A stretch of DNA of 64,000 nt from Bacteroidetes bacterium GWF2_43_63 (GTDB lineage: Bacteria; Bacteroidota; Bacteroidia; Bacteroidales; DTU049). The position numbers were made by a program, and so were the translations under genes. The stretch spans positions 62,001 through 126,000 of the forward strand of contig MEOQ01000009.1 in the NCBI GenBank assembly GCA_001769275.1, read 5' to 3'. This document shows, piece by piece, positions 25,089 through 32,400 of the stretch (positions within the stretch are counted from its first letter, which is position 1; each line of letters starts with the position of its first letter). The notes beneath the pieces are model-generated. The model was not told the DNA's origin. It did not search any database and saw only the letters and a program-made list of their open reading frames with translations.

Positions 25089-25519
25089 CGCTAATGGACG
25101 CGAAAGATTTTGCTTCCCTCAGCAGGTCTTATTGACGCAAATCCGCCAGCATCAGTCACTGGCGTGACATGAAGGGCGGACATGTTCGAATCCGCCTTCA
25201 TCTGCGATGAAGACTGATTCCGTTGTGTATAATATTTTTACTCAGCGTTTATCGGGATATTGTATTCAATTATTTTCGCGTTATTCCGCGTCTGATAAAA
25301 TGCCACAAAGGGCACAAAGCCACCAACTTTTTTTTGTGCCTTCGTGTCTCAGTGGCAAAACCTCAGCGAATGAAGCCCGTTTCAGAAATTCCTTAGCATA
25401 AAGCTTAAGATTTTGTGGATGTAATTTTCACCGCTCTTTAAGCCTTAAACATTAAGCCTTAAGCGTTAGTAATATTCCGCGTTACTCCGCGTCTAATCTC
25501 ATGCCCTAAGCCGCATGCG

Positions 25520-27719: not shown

Positions 27720-28913
27720 TCAATAAAGCAGGCCAAACATCCACAACGGAATAACGTTGCTGTGGCCGGATTCCAGATGATCAGCGGCGACGTAGGCATG
27801 AGGAATTCCGCGAATTTGCCGGTCATTCTTCGATCGGCCACCAATCTCAAAAACATAACGGCCGTCCACCAGAAAATCGCCTTCAGCAGTATATTCCACG
27901 CGATGTGCATACTCAAGCTGGTTCATAAAATAGGTTTCGCGCAGACTGCCGGTATTCACTTCTTCGGGTGCAAAAGCATACATGAAATTCGTGTTTTCAA
28001 GAAAAATTTTGTCGGGCTTCTGCAGGCGACTGATTCCTTTTGAATCACGATAAAGGTTTCGGGTCAGGTGGGCTTCTCTGAGGAAGAAAAGATAGGTTGA
28101 AAGGGTATTCCGGTTAATGCCGATCTTTTCGCTCAGTTTGCTCACATTGGGTATAAAAGGTGCTGTCTCAGAAATGACCTGCAGCAGTTGTTTGATTTTT
28201 GACACATACTGAATCTCCACCTTCCTGAGCAGGGGAAGTTCAATTTCCAGGATCATATTGGCCACCTCACCGATGCGTTGAAAATACAGATCGGCGCCTT
28301 CAGTGAAAAAGGGGTAGTACCCTTGTTTGAGATACACCGGAAAATGTTTCAGTGGCCGGATGACTTTATTGATTTCGCGGGCTATTTCCACATGTCCTTT
28401 CAAAAGGTCATGCAGCGATACTATCGGAAAATTGTGATCCAGAGTCATATTGAGGTACTCCCTGAACGAAAGACCCTGCATAGAATAAACCACTGCGCGC
28501 CGGCTAAGGTCGGCCCGGGCATTCAGAATTTCAAGCAGGGATGAACCTGTAAAAACGATCTTCAGTTTTGGAAAATCATCATACAGATTTTTCAGGACGA
28601 TGGACCAGTCGGGGTACTTATGCACTTCATCCAGGCACAGATATCGACCGCCTTTCTTCTCGAAATCGTCGGCCAGATCCAGCAGCGAATGACTGGCAAA
28701 CCACAGGTTGTCGAGGCTGGCATACAAAACTTCATCAGGATCCTTGCGTATGCTGTTTAAATGCTGCAGCAGCAAGGTGGTTTTCCCCACTCCCCTGGCA
28801 CCCCGTATCCCAATCAAACGGGCATTCCAGTTAATGGAATCCATGAGCCCACGGTTAAAGTCGGTGGACACATTGTTGATTCTGCGTTCCGATCGCTCGT
28901 ATAGTTCGTTCAT
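27720..28913 (-). CDS. AAA_14/DUF4143 ATPase, copy 2
   Basis: 397 residues. Walker A IRGARGVGKTTLLLQ (about 34-48), Walker B RYLCLDEVHKYPDW, sensor motif IVFTGSSLLEI. The middle part has a winged-helix-like stretch (LSEKIGINRNTLSTYLFFLREA) and the C-terminal half is DUF4143-like (YFMNQLEYAHRVEYTAEGDFLVDGRYVFEIGG). It is divergent from copy 1 and not a recent duplicate. Its stop codon lies only a few bases from the end of direct repeat copy 1, so the gene abuts a rearrangement junction. Stand-alone, function unknown. Confidence 0.85.
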   Translation of the reverse strand: MNELYERSERRINNVSTDFNRGLMDSINWNARLIGIRGARGVGKTTLLLQHLNSIRKDPDEVLYASLDNLWFASHSLLDLADDFEKKGGRYLCLDEVHKYPDWSIVLKNLYDDFPKLKIVFTGSSLLEILNARADLSRRAVVYSMQGLSFREYLNMTLDHNFPIVSLHDLLKGHVEIAREINKVIRPLKHFPVYLKQGYYPFFTEGADLYFQRIGEVANMILEIELPLLRKVEIQYVSKIKQLLQVISETAPFIPNVSKLSEKIGINRNTLSTYLFFLREAHLTRNLYRDSKGISRLQKPDKIFLENTNFMYAFAPEEVNTGSLRETYFMNQLEYAHRVEYTAEGDFLVDGRYVFEIGGRSKNDRQIRGIPHAYVAADHLESGHSNVIPLWMFGLLY

Positions 28914-29090
28914 AATTGCTTAATAGAATAAGCAAATATAGTCTTTTTTTGCTTAATGTGGTAATAAAAAGTGTTTTTTTGAAAGGCGGGAATCTAAAAT
29001 CAACACGTATTTTTCTTTTATCCGCTTTTATCATAGATTTATTCAGATGTTTCAGCGTTCTTCCGCGTCTAATGTCGTGCCTTAGTGTCT
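28914..29090. other. spacer to the left end of the IS110 element
   Basis: A+T-rich, with the phrase TTCCGCGTCTAATG and, at the very end, CTTAGTGTCT, which forms the left half of the inferred IS110 target. No gene seen. Confidence 0.5.
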
Positions 29091-29133
29091 TATATGTTTG
29101 TATTTTGAAACAGAAAAAGCAAAATATCAATAA

Positions 29134-29254
29134 ATTTGACTTTGAGGGGGCTTGTGTAAAAGCACTGTGATGCTGTCACTGAGAGACCCCCAAATGTCAA
29201 ATCCAATACGTGGTATATCTTGATTTCCAAAAATCGCATTTGATAAGAAAGTAT
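29134..29254 (+). ncRNA. predicted IS110 bridge RNA (target loop plus donor loop)
   Basis: Two consecutive structured loops precede the transposase. Target loop: outer stem ATTTGAC/GTCAAAT (29134-29140 with 29196-29202), inner stem GGGGG/CCCCC, apical hairpin AGCA/TGCT. Its left guide is CTTGTGT (29151-29157) and its right guide CACTGAGA (29177-29184). The right guide is fully complementary to TCTCAGTG of the rebuilt target. Donor loop: stem ATAC/GTAT (29206-29209 with 29251-29254), apical hairpin GATTT/AAATC. Its left guide GGTATATCT (29212-29220) is identical to the element's right end (30726-30734), and ATAAG (29243-29247) is complementary to CTTAT at the left end. Architecture as described for IS621; not transcript-verified. 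Confidence 0.8.
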
Positions 29255-29291
29255 CATGATTTGACAATTTTAAAACTAAAAACAACCGTCA

Positions 29292-30695
29292 ATGAAACAG
29301 AAAAGTATTTTTATGGGAATTGATGTCAGTTAAGGATATGCGGATTTCTGCATCCTGTCATCGACCAGAGAACCTTTGGAACCTGATTTTCAGCTCGATG
29401 ATCAAAGAGATGGGCATCAACTTCTTAAGGAAAAAGTTACTTCATTGCTTTCTCGTTCAGAAGACGTTTTTGTAGGGGTTGAAAACACGGGAGGATATGA
29501 ACGCAATTGGATTAACGCGCTTCATGCAATCAGAAAAACAAATTCAAAACTGCATGTGTTCAAGTTTAATCCCAGAGCAGTAAAATATCAGATACAAAGT
29601 CTGATGAAGACTGTTGTTGATGATGGCGTTAGTGCATATGGCATTGCAATTTACATGATTAACAACCATAATCTGAGAGAAAATGACTGGGAAAAAAGTA
29701 CCAATCAGAGCGAATATGAAAGAGAAATGCAGCTTTTGTACAGCATGATTCAAGCTCTGATTAAGCAAAGAACAGCCAAACTCAATCAGCTTGAAAAGCT
29801 TTTGTATGGCGCTTTTCCTGAGATATTAAAGTACGTTAAAGACTCGGTGCCAGCATGGGTTTTGAGACTAATCGAAAAGTATCCGGATGCAAAAGCTGTC
29901 GCAAAAGCAAAAATTGAAGGGCTGACAAAGATCAAGGGCATCAGCGAGAAAAAGGCGACTGTCCTTAAACAACTGGCAGTAAACAGCGTAGCATCATTAC
30001 AGGGTGACATCACCCGAAAAATTATCTCACAGTACAGCCAGGATATAATGTATCTGAACAATGAAATAGATACATACAAAGCAATGCTGGTCTCTGTTTA
30101 TAAGGACACTCCGGAATTGAAAGTGATCAATACCGTGAAAGGCATCGCTGATTGGACTGCCACATCGTTTTTGATTGAAATCGGAGATTACAAAAGATTT
30201 GGATCTACAGATCAGCTTGCATCTTTTTATGGTGTAAATCCATCTTTCAAACAAAGTGGTGATGGCCTTTACAAAGTAAAAATGAGTAAACAGGGAAGTG
30301 CAAAAATGAGGGCGGTTTTGTACCTTATTGCGCATAATCTTGTTATACATAATCAGTACTTCCGCGATATATATGCCAAGCACAAAGCCAAGGGTAAAAA
30401 GCACAATGCCGTAATGGGCATACTTATGCATAAGGTACTTCGGGTTTTGTGGGGAATGCTGATGACCAACACTCCATTTACTGAAAAAATCGATCTTATA
30501 AACCGGCAGAAATCAGTTGATAGTCAGGCAAACAATCACCCCATCAGTGAACGTGCCCGCAGATACCAGCCCCTTAATCTTGACGCTCCAATATCCAGGT
30601 CAAACTCTAAAAAAAGAAAGGCTATTCTCACGCCTCAATCATCAACAAAGGATGAATCATGCGAGGTCTTGGAGAATAACCCAGTGCAAACTTAA
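29292..30695 (+). pseudogene. IS110 transposase with in-frame stop at codon 14
   Basis: Reading from ATG 29292 gives MKQKSIFMGIDVS, then TAA (29331-29333), then GYADFCILSSTREPLEPDF and the rest of a full IS110 transposase in the same frame (467 codons without the stop). GIDVS carries the first Asp of the DEDD RuvC-like site. VGVENTGGYE supplies the Glu and VVDDGVSAYGIAIY the following acidic positions. The C-terminal Transposase_20 domain has FYGVNPSFKQSGDG and MSKQGSAKMRAVLY with the catalytic serine region. TAA most simply arose from AAA or AAG. Any product starting downstream (for example TTG 29376) would lack the first catalytic Asp. The element is therefore probably immobile unless readthrough or a helper copy acts. 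Confidence 0.88.
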
Positions 30696-30716
30696 AAAAA
30701 GTTTGCGAATTTTTTG
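30686..30716 (+). terminator. terminator-like hairpin after the IS110 transposase
   Basis: Stem GCAAACTT/AAGTTTGC (30686-30693 with 30699-30706), loop AAAAA, followed by GAATTTTTT. It overlaps the stop codon region. Confidence 0.6.
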
Positions 30717-30848
30717 GAAATTAACGGTATATCTCAGTGGCAAAATTCCAAACGTCTGTTTTTTGTCCACAGATTAGCGCAGATTTACACAGATTAAAAC
30801 CGTGAAATTTCCTCAGCAGGTCCTCCGATTTGCGCAGATACGAAACGG

Positions 30849-31025
30849 GCTTCATCTGTGATGAAGCCCGTTTTAGATTGTACAATAAAAATCTTCCGTG
30901 CCTTCGTGGCTCAGTGGCGAAATTCCAAACTTCGCCTTTATAAACTTTCTACTTTATGGACTTTCCACTTGCTTTGGTGCGTAGCACATCGTAAATAAAA
31001 GTTGGCCCCGACACAAAAGTCCTTC
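30849..31025. repeat. ~175 bp direct repeat, copy 2
   Basis: Matches 27542-27715 with a shift of about 3.3 kb. Begins at a CGGGCTTCATC/GATGAAGCCCG hairpin and runs into the glycosyltransferase remnant. Confidence 0.85.
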
Positions 31026-31170
31026 TCCACAATCTTCGCGGCTCCATCAGCAACCGGCTAAACCACTCAAGCCCAATGCTGATCATCCATTCGGGCGGGC
31101 GCTTGGTGGTGCCGGCATAGAAAAAACGGCGCCCAAAATAATCTTCCGGAGGCCGTCTTTTGGAGAGATA
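30949..31170 (-). pseudogene. 3' remnant of a TagA/WecG/CpsF-family glycosyltransferase
   Basis: A 73-codon open fragment without start that begins after an upstream stop (31171-31173). It reads KRPPEWMISIGLEWFSRLL, then MEPRRLWRRTFVSGPTF and IYDVLRTKASGKSIK. The sequence AGTTKRPPEWM, then GLEW, RLL and EPRRLWRR, is the characteristic C-terminal end of WecG/TagA N-acetylmannosamine(uronic acid) transferases. The N-terminal ~170 residues are missing. A second, shorter copy of the same tail sits at 27645-27715. This points to a lost glycosyltransferase gene and local rearrangement between the two copies. Confidence 0.75.
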
Positions 31171-31308
31171 TTAAAAATCTATTATCTTATAATTCTTACC
31201 ACCGGAACCCGCTCCCAATCAATGTTTTCAAGGAATGTAAAATTATGGTATCTAGAAAATATTGCAATCTTTAAGCTTTAAAACATTATGAGCTAAACGT
31301 AATCCAAA
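31171..31308. other. spacer before the DUF1972 glycosyltransferase stop
   Basis: A+T-rich sequence without gene or clear terminator. Marks the switch from rearranged repeat DNA to the intact glycosyltransferase operon. Confidence 0.4.
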
Positions 31309-32400
31309 TTAAAACAATTCAGCATATTTATTCGAAATGTTTTTCCATGTATATCGTCTATGCGCAATCGATGACATTTCACTCGATAACTTTTCTGTTT
31401 GCTCTTTATCCAGTTTTGAAATAATTCCGAACAAATCAGTTTCATCTTTGAAGTATAATGCCTTCTCTTCTGTTGTGAAATGATTGGTTGTTACATCAAA
31501 AGCTATAATTGGCAAACCTAAACACATGGCTTCAACCAACGATGGAGCTGTTCCGCAAAAAGAGTGACTATGTATGTATAAATCAGCATTACTTCTGATT
31601 GCATCAAGTTCTTTTTGGTCATAAACCGCATCCTGCAAAAACAGATTTGGAAAATGTGAATATTTGTTTTTCAACGCTCTACCATATTCAAATTTGTTGT
31701 AGTTTGAAACAAGAACCAGATTTCTTTCTGGCACTTTACTATACGCTTCTAAAAGTAGATGCAAATTATTGTCAGCCTGCGCGCGCGAAACACTTACATC
31801 ATAGTCATTGGCAAGAAACGGATATTTATTTAATAGTTGCTTGTCAATCTGAATTTTTTCAGTGTGATCTCCACCATATTCAATGAGGGTGCTATTTTTT
31901 TTATAAACGTCCTTTATATAATTACAAAAATGCTGGTTGTCTGCAACAATTGAAGTGGCATTTCGAATAGCAATTTTCTCCGATAACTTCAAATGCCAGC
32001 TTCCAATCTTACCCCATTTATTTCTTTTCCACTCCAATCCTCCAAAATTTATAACTGTGTTCGTTTTCTTAAAGAGCCTGAAAAAAGGAAGTATCATGCA
32101 TCCACCGGTTCCAAGAATTAAGAGTGAATCATATTTGAACCAACTCAAAGCAATTGATACTATGTCGTAAATTATACTTTGAGCTCCATTAGCTTTAAAT
32201 GGCAAATAGCGGAGTTTGCTGCCATTATATTCTTTTATTCTCTTTTCCTTGGGAGCTTTTTGACAAAAAACAGTAATGTCAAAGTCTTTGCTTTTTTCAA
32301 TAGTCAAATAATTTACCAGCGTTTCAAATCCACCATAATTGGCTGGTAAGCCAACACTTCCAATTATAGCAACCGTTTTCTTTCTTCTGCTATTCATCAA
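31309..32400 (-). CDS. DUF1972-type glycosyltransferase
   Basis: 363 residues. The N-terminus has AIIGSVGLPANYGGFETLV (about 11-29), the hallmark of DUF1972 rhamnosyltransferase-like proteins. INFGGLEWKRNKWG and a GT4-type C-terminal half with SVSRAQADNNLHLLLEAY, and SFCGTAPSLVEAMCLGLPII as donor-binding E-x7-E-like region, follow. It probably adds a deoxyhexose to the growing repeat unit at the cytosolic face. It overlaps the preceding RmlD-like gene by 4 bp and is the last gene of the overlapping glycosyltransferase operon. Confidence 0.85.
   Translation of the reverse strand: MMNSRRKKTVAIIGSVGLPANYGGFETLVNYLTIEKSKDFDITVFCQKAPKEKRIKEYNGSKLRYLPFKANGAQSIIYDIVSIALSWFKYDSLLILGTGGCMILPFFRLFKKTNTVINFGGLEWKRNKWGKIGSWHLKLSEKIAIRNATSIVADNQHFCNYIKDVYKKNSTLIEYGGDHTEKIQIDKQLLNKYPFLANDYDVSVSRAQADNNLHLLLEAYSKVPERNLVLVSNYNKFEYGRALKNKYSHFPNLFLQDAVYDQKELDAIRSNADLYIHSHSFCGTAPSLVEAMCLGLPIIAFDVTTNHFTTEEKALYFKDETDLFGIISKLDKEQTEKLSSEMSSIAHRRYTWKNISNKYAELF

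Follow-up and report, generated by a model that had tools for sequence, protein, structure and literature searches.

Positions 29089–30734 of the window, the whole 64,000-nucleotide stretch of DNA analyzed here, have the make-up of an IS110-type element: CT cores at both junctions, and a two-loop bridge RNA in the 5' non-coding end. We put the probability at about 93% that this is such an element, with a bridge RNA, and that it belongs to a clade whose recombinases, about 430–480 residues long, carry a D-E-D-S catalytic tetrad. What supports this reading was observed in silico: the anatomy of the element, covariation in the RNA, agreement of the guides with targets and with element ends, a serine at the fourth catalytic position, and near-identical copies dispersed in a relative's genome.

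In the model that we infer for expression, circle formation, catalysis and the role of the serine, the excised circle would join the right end to the left end and so create a promoter before the left end, and the circle-junction transcript would be the bridge RNA. Its first loop would pair with both target halves, the left guide with the bottom strand and the right guide with the top, while its second loop would pair with the element's own junction of right end, CT and left end (RE-CT-LE). The D-E-D-S recombinase would exchange strands at CT. Targets vary by member and often are parts of dispersed repeats, the window's belonging to the CTTNGTG phrase.

The earlier note on this DNA had delimited the element as 29091–30734. 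That right end stands, but the true start lies two bases upstream, at 29089, the first CT core occupying 29089–29090 and the second 30733–30734. Every motif that the note named was found in the window sequence where it had been placed (Table 1). Both junctions of the window element have CT, and so do those of four copies in a single-contig genome (G701); elsewhere the script that called right ends required it, so that its frequency there carries no weight. The recombinase frame opens with ATG at 29292, meets a TAA as codon 14, directly after the Asp that matches IS621 D11, the first catalytic Asp, and is open over its remainder. Because the frame is interrupted, the window copy is probably immobile and probably a relic. 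The note had proposed looking for other copies in the complete genome; searches by DNA and by protein of the host's own genome (3.98 Mb, 51 contigs) found no second copy. Rfam over 28500–31500 returned no family that matches the element, a result of little weight, and a single below-threshold hit, outside it. Shortly 3' of the element, at 30768–30798, lies a second dispersed-looking phrase, CACAGATTAGCGCAGATTTACACAGATTAAA; strings resembling it adjoin two relatives (L002 and L004).

Table 1. The element, its guides and its target in the window.
Feature	Position	Strand	Basis or remark
Left target half CCTTAGTGT	29080..29088	+	inside host phrase; left-guide match 4/5
CT core, left junction	29089..29090	+	CT invariant in 17-row alignment A4
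TATGTTTG, -7 box of Bacteroidota type	29093..29100	+	-33 TTTG only in circular form
Bridge RNA region, target-binding loop and donor-binding loop	29133..29272	+	fold, covariation
Left target guide CTTGTGT	29151..29157	+	sequence position, guide-flank comparison
Right target guide CACTGAGA	29177..29184	+	complementary to TCTCAGTG spanning the joined flanks; 5/5 flank bases
Left donor guide GGTATATCT	29212..29220	+	same sequence as right end
Right donor guide ATAAG	29243..29247	+	complementary to left-end CTTAT
IS110-type recombinase gene	29292..30695	+	in-frame TAA at 29331-29333
D-G-V-S	29622..29633	+	third catalytic Asp (IS621 D102) retained; Ser at the fourth (D105)
TTTG, -33 box	30713..30716	+	spaced 20 bases from TATGTTTG when right and left ends are joined in the circle
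Right end GGTATATCT, including second CT core	30726..30734	+	sequence position
Right target half CAGTGGC	30735..30741	+	guide-flank comparison
Uninterrupted relative of target phrase	25301..25357	+	imperfect hairpin fold; GTGTCTCAGTGGC at 25344-25356

Relatives are widely distributed by record title. An order-wide search (393 genomes, E ≤ 1e-50) found three besides the window, and a search of the genome collection with a four-protein alignment found 79 loci, titled Bacteroidota, Ignavibacteria, Chlorobiota, Balneolaceae, Rhodothermaceae, Desulfobacterales and other deltaproteobacteria, Acidobacteriota, KSB1, Cloacimonadota, Calditrichaeota, WOR-3, Marinimicrobia and two archaeal bins. Since most relatives come from metagenome bins, single host labels are uncertain. 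Our script called 70 left ends; dropping three false calls (L059, L072, L082) and adding the window leaves 68, of which 54 have a strictly called left donor guide and 14 none, and in 41 of those 54 elements both flanks are long enough. Neither a search of viral contigs nor a first single-sequence scan of genome contigs gave a confirmed relative, and in the plasmid search all 1467 records fell below 60% identity (at most 26.8% among the matches listed).

The consensus of 28 aligned sequences, picked from the left ends above, forms two stem modules with internal loops, and 20 of its 25 stem pairs show compensatory changes on both sides. Covariation in homologues is thereby present for both loops of the RNA that the earlier note had proposed. 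Stems covary among relatives while loops vary. Folded by itself, the window sequence does modestly better than its shuffles (z -2.35; 3/200 shuffles as good), and because it stands only moderately above them, the weight of the fold case rests on the alignment.

The donor guides agree with the element ends in every called case. We looked for right donor guides with the pattern A[CT][AG]AG; they fit the left end in 51/51 called cases, with three of 54 uncalled; guide and end sort into the classes TGT/ACA (29), TAT/ATA (20) and CGT/ACG (2), and none lies off the diagonal. Of the 54 left donor guides, the 38 for which a comparison could be called all match the right end, across five sequence classes; right ends for this comparison were called by a generic pattern.

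Since left donor guide and right end share one sequence, the guide may itself be able to serve as a right end. In two relatives a mini-element stops, on its right side, at the left donor guide position (window 29212..29220). We compared 58 distinct left ends in which 75 bases or more follow the left donor guide: 54 go on to a right donor guide that is exact, two to a one-base variant, and two to neither; mini-elements were called by this exact test. In the two minis the sequence switches at the guide's CT to a target-like flank. One (L002/L132) is 121 bp, with right flank TAGTGGG where TAGTG was predicted, and in L002 lies 85 bases from a contig end. The other (L151) is 150 bp, with right flank TCGAGGTT where CCGAG was predicted, and sits 1,500 or more bases from a contig end. 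In a further relative (L091) the RNA is complete and the two ends lie 270 bp apart, the recombinase being absent between them. We hold it slightly better than an even bet that the minis are products of simple deletion between left donor guide and right end, which form direct repeats, and not by recombinase use of the guide: the two have about 9 bases in common, so that slippage or homologous deletion would yield the same junction, and each mini was found once. That both switch at the exact CT to the guide-predicted flank (5 and 4 of 5 bases) fits either origin. For IS621, 22 bp of donor are enough if another part of the plasmid provides the RNA (PMC11208160).

The modelled circle junction is predicted to rebuild a promoter of either Bacteroidota or sigma70 type. 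The circle of IS621 is reported to rebuild a sigma70-like promoter (PMC11208160), and the Bacteroidota consensus combines a -7 box TAnnTTTG with a -33 TTTG (PMC7366714). Among the 20 elements with TTATA-type left ends, the -7 box is preceded by TTG at a distance of exactly 20 bases in 19 modelled junctions, versus one of the same elements' integrated left flanks, or three if spacings of 19–21 are allowed. Seventeen of these 20 carry TAnnTTTG; the full TTTG is less telling (5/20 junctions vs 3/20 integrated). Of the other 27 elements, 24 junctions place a TTGACA-like box (at least 5/6) 17 bases before a TATGTT-like box, and integrated flanks do so in 0/27, four of them with too little flank. 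TAnnTTTG was found in 20/25 left ends from hosts titled Bacteroidota in the narrow sense and in 0/43 from other or unclear hosts, the groups being typed from titles, with Kapaibacterium, Ignavibacteria, Balneolaceae and Rhodothermaceae counted as others. The box is also carried by Bacteroidales relatives from a different branch (L047, L055, L070), a distribution that points to repeated promoter adaptation.

The recombinase has both expected domains over cut-off, PF01548 (RuvC-like, 40.4 bits) and PF02371 (Tnp, 67.4 bits). In the hmmsearch alignment the D102-x-x-D105-A of IS621 aligns gap-free with D-x-x-S-A. Serine occupies the fourth catalytic position in 35 of 36 aligned proteins and the D105 column in 73 of the 75 clade loci that cover it (4/79 do not); the remaining two, the sister pair L030 and L045, have Ala. 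The third catalytic Asp, in the D102 column, is kept in 75/75, and the Ser-Gly of the Tnp domain (IS621 S241) keeps both residues in 36/36 aligned proteins. In place of the DEDD tetrad, then, the clade keeps D, E and the third D, and the fourth is replaced. A PF01548 search of 60 genomes of the class supplied a contrast set of 30 loci, 29 besides the window. D-x-x-D was read in 20 of these by alignment, about ten of the 20 being near-identical copies from one genome, and in three more by motif; 6/29 were unreadable, and none has Ser. Nine D-x-x-D rows separate from the clade in the tree with support 98/96, some joins being long-branched. The nearest solved structures by sequence are ISCro4 and IS621, and a fold search with a relative's model also places these two nearest (target TM 0.76–0.78). 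An AlphaFold model of P0002 gave weaker fold matches to Nop5/Nop56 and TIGR-Tas, ranked after IS621 and ISCro4.

The serine could mean that the clade is catalytically dead and moved in trans by DEDD relatives, or else an old relic. D105 of IS621 bonds a water that holds the metal, and its mutation abolished recombination (PMC11208158); stop codons interrupt L005/L055 as well as the window copy, and fewer than 400 codons are open in 16/79 loci, some of them cut by contig ends. We nevertheless judge a dead clade improbable: Ser is conserved rather than random at this column, at least 400 codons are open in 63/79 loci, and guides track targets. Moreover, G701 holds four full copies of 1716 bp, with 0–14 differences and with open frames that carry TDKQSA, and the two copies with 0 differences occupy different sites. 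Because near-identical copies with open frames are dispersed in this genome, the DEDS enzyme probably works. In an active enzyme, Ser could hold the metal-bound water in D105's place.

Read at fixed alignment columns, the right target guide predicts 113/125 flank bases (five each in 25 elements), whereas shuffling gives 46.9 +/- 5.4, with a maximum of 74 in 20,000 shuffles. Two rows fail, L043 (0/5) and L012 (1/5), the latter with a doubtful right end; L007, L009 and L021 have 4/5 each. The left target guide predicts 93/140 flank bases in 28 elements against 39.4 +/- 6.0 when shuffled; its low rows, which include L008 and L009 (0/5) and L014 and L012 (1/5), look like a one-base alignment shift, and we left the count as it is. 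Close relatives are among the rows (L017/L018, L021/L024, L043/L056), and because rows are related, independent events are fewer than rows and the shuffle z-scores are overstated. Scans that use no chosen columns gave 6.86/8 vs 5.38 for the right guide (n=44) and 6.78/9 vs 5.84 for the left (n=49). The claim that all four guides fit the element's ends and target thus holds, in that the motifs are in place and the agreement extends across relatives. In the window itself the right target guide fits as claimed, and the left is imperfect, with 4/5 bases matched and AA, not CT, as its core-pairing bases. Taken alone, the window's guide matches might be luck; set against the relatives' sequences, they are not.

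In L043, the sequence after the right end differs from the flank that its guide predicts, and at about 1851 it reads TATATGTG, resembling the start of another left end; we rejected its right flank, which starts TATATG, as a tandem copy, similarity ending after 8 bases. A KSB1 genome (G412) has six hits (L192–L197), and its copies form a natural set of reprogrammed siblings.

Shared insertion sites also bear on the guides. The earlier note had asked whether copies with the same 5' end lie in unrelated sites; in four genomes all or most lie in similar ones. In G166, where two guide alleles are spread over five left ends, 5/5 left flanks lie in a CTTxGTG phrase; in G511, 4/4 sites fall in one repeat containing TGCCATGGCAAG; in G862, 5/6 sites share one repeat context; and in G340, 3/4 sites lie beside one palindrome arm that is ACCTAACAGGTT-like. 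G701 agrees on the right only, where flanks tagcg, cagcg, tggcg and tggcg match the predicted TAGCG at 5, 4, 4 and 4 of 5 bases; its left flanks fit the left guide poorly. Target choice by the protein, with the RNA matches as remnants of former flanks taken up into the element, would be compatible with the window's single copy and with the loose left-target agreement in G701, but we find it very hard to credit when guides vary with flanks at fixed alignment columns across relatives, when the five readable copies within G412 carry three right-guide alleles, and when covarying stems enclose varying loops. Stem covariation and the shared-site outcomes favor the bridge-RNA interpretation, which the analysis supports.

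The note had also taken the target to be a multi-copy host phrase, which proved right for a degenerate family and not for the exact 13-mer. The exact GTGTCTCAGTGGC is intact once in the own genome and, with up to two mismatches, has 60 sites vs 63 for the reversed control; with one intact copy and no enrichment, we rejected it as a dispersed repeat. When one mismatch at most is allowed, the looser phrase CTTNGTGNCTNNGTGGC has 43 sites in the same genome vs 10 for the reversed control. Over 27 host genomes, chosen partly for phrase-like insertions, CTTNGYGNCTTNGYGG has 297 matches in total vs 6 for the control, and 6/27 genomes, including G005 and G197, lack it. Several of the 27 have inverted phrase pairs separated by some tens of bases. 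Host genomes with such pairs include other groups, and the window itself has at 25301–25357 a REP-like hairpin with two inverted CTTNGTG-type arms, of the kind that the element targeted. YNGYGG right flanks were found in 13/49 elements vs 0.5 expected from composition, five of the 49 flanks having been added by hand and one duplicate dropped. The insertion sites suggest that the clade often, though not always, inserts in dispersed repeats. A search of an open library of published papers found no mention of the phrase letters. Four other relatives, mostly from Ignavibacteria (L034, L067, L068 and L080), have the right targets GGTTAGGC, GGTTATGT, GGTTATAC and GGTTAGGT, two of which we take to fit the GTTRRRY end of attC sites.

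Much of this resembles known systems. As in IS621 (PMC11208160, PMC11208158), a left-end bridge RNA carries left and right target guides and left and right donor guides, the core is CT, targets lie in dispersed palindromes, REP in IS621, and the recombinase combines RuvC-like and Tnp domains; the circle, which in IS621 has a promoter across RE-LE, is predicted to have one here too. Repetitive palindromes are already known as IS110 targets (PMC11208160; PMC1525189). Unlike IS621, whose recombinase has about 328 residues, the clade has the longer enzyme, Ser at the D105 position and other target phrases; in Bacteroidota hosts its predicted junction promoter is mostly of the Bacteroidota type. 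ISCro4 (PDB 9t56) is the best PDB sequence match by profile and has the same fold as a relative's model; unlike the clade, it keeps D-x-x-D and has 341 residues, with about 20% identity in the structural alignment. The IS1111 group, described through its seekRNA, likewise chooses targets by RNA, some members targeting attC or REP, but carries subterminal inverted repeats and has its RNA downstream of tnp, whereas here the RNA lies upstream (PMC11187229). In the window the guides precede the ORF, and just 39 bases separate its stop codon from the right end.

The bridge RNA, the CT core and repeat targeting are known features. New to us are Ser at a reportedly essential residue, a junction promoter that follows the type of the host, and minis that end at the guide; our search of an open library of published papers showed no report of these three among the matches listed. 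We advance tentatively, at somewhat under even odds, the broader proposal that a multi-phylum D-E-D-S clade works without IS621's Asp, swaps promoter type with its host, and sheds trans-moved 120–150-bp target-guide minis by using the left donor guide as an end. The open frames and identical copies in G701 suggest that DEDS recombinases are active.

Bridge recombinases are under development as genome-writing tools, and the rules for their active site are based on IS621 and a few relatives. A Ser in place of the fourth catalytic Asp, with guides and targets still matched, would indicate that this residue is replaceable. The clade supplies enzymes for direct testing and a natural set of guide-target pairs, and it ties bridge RNAs to the promoter type of the host. 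A guide that equals an end, finally, offers a simple route by which elements could shed mini-elements.
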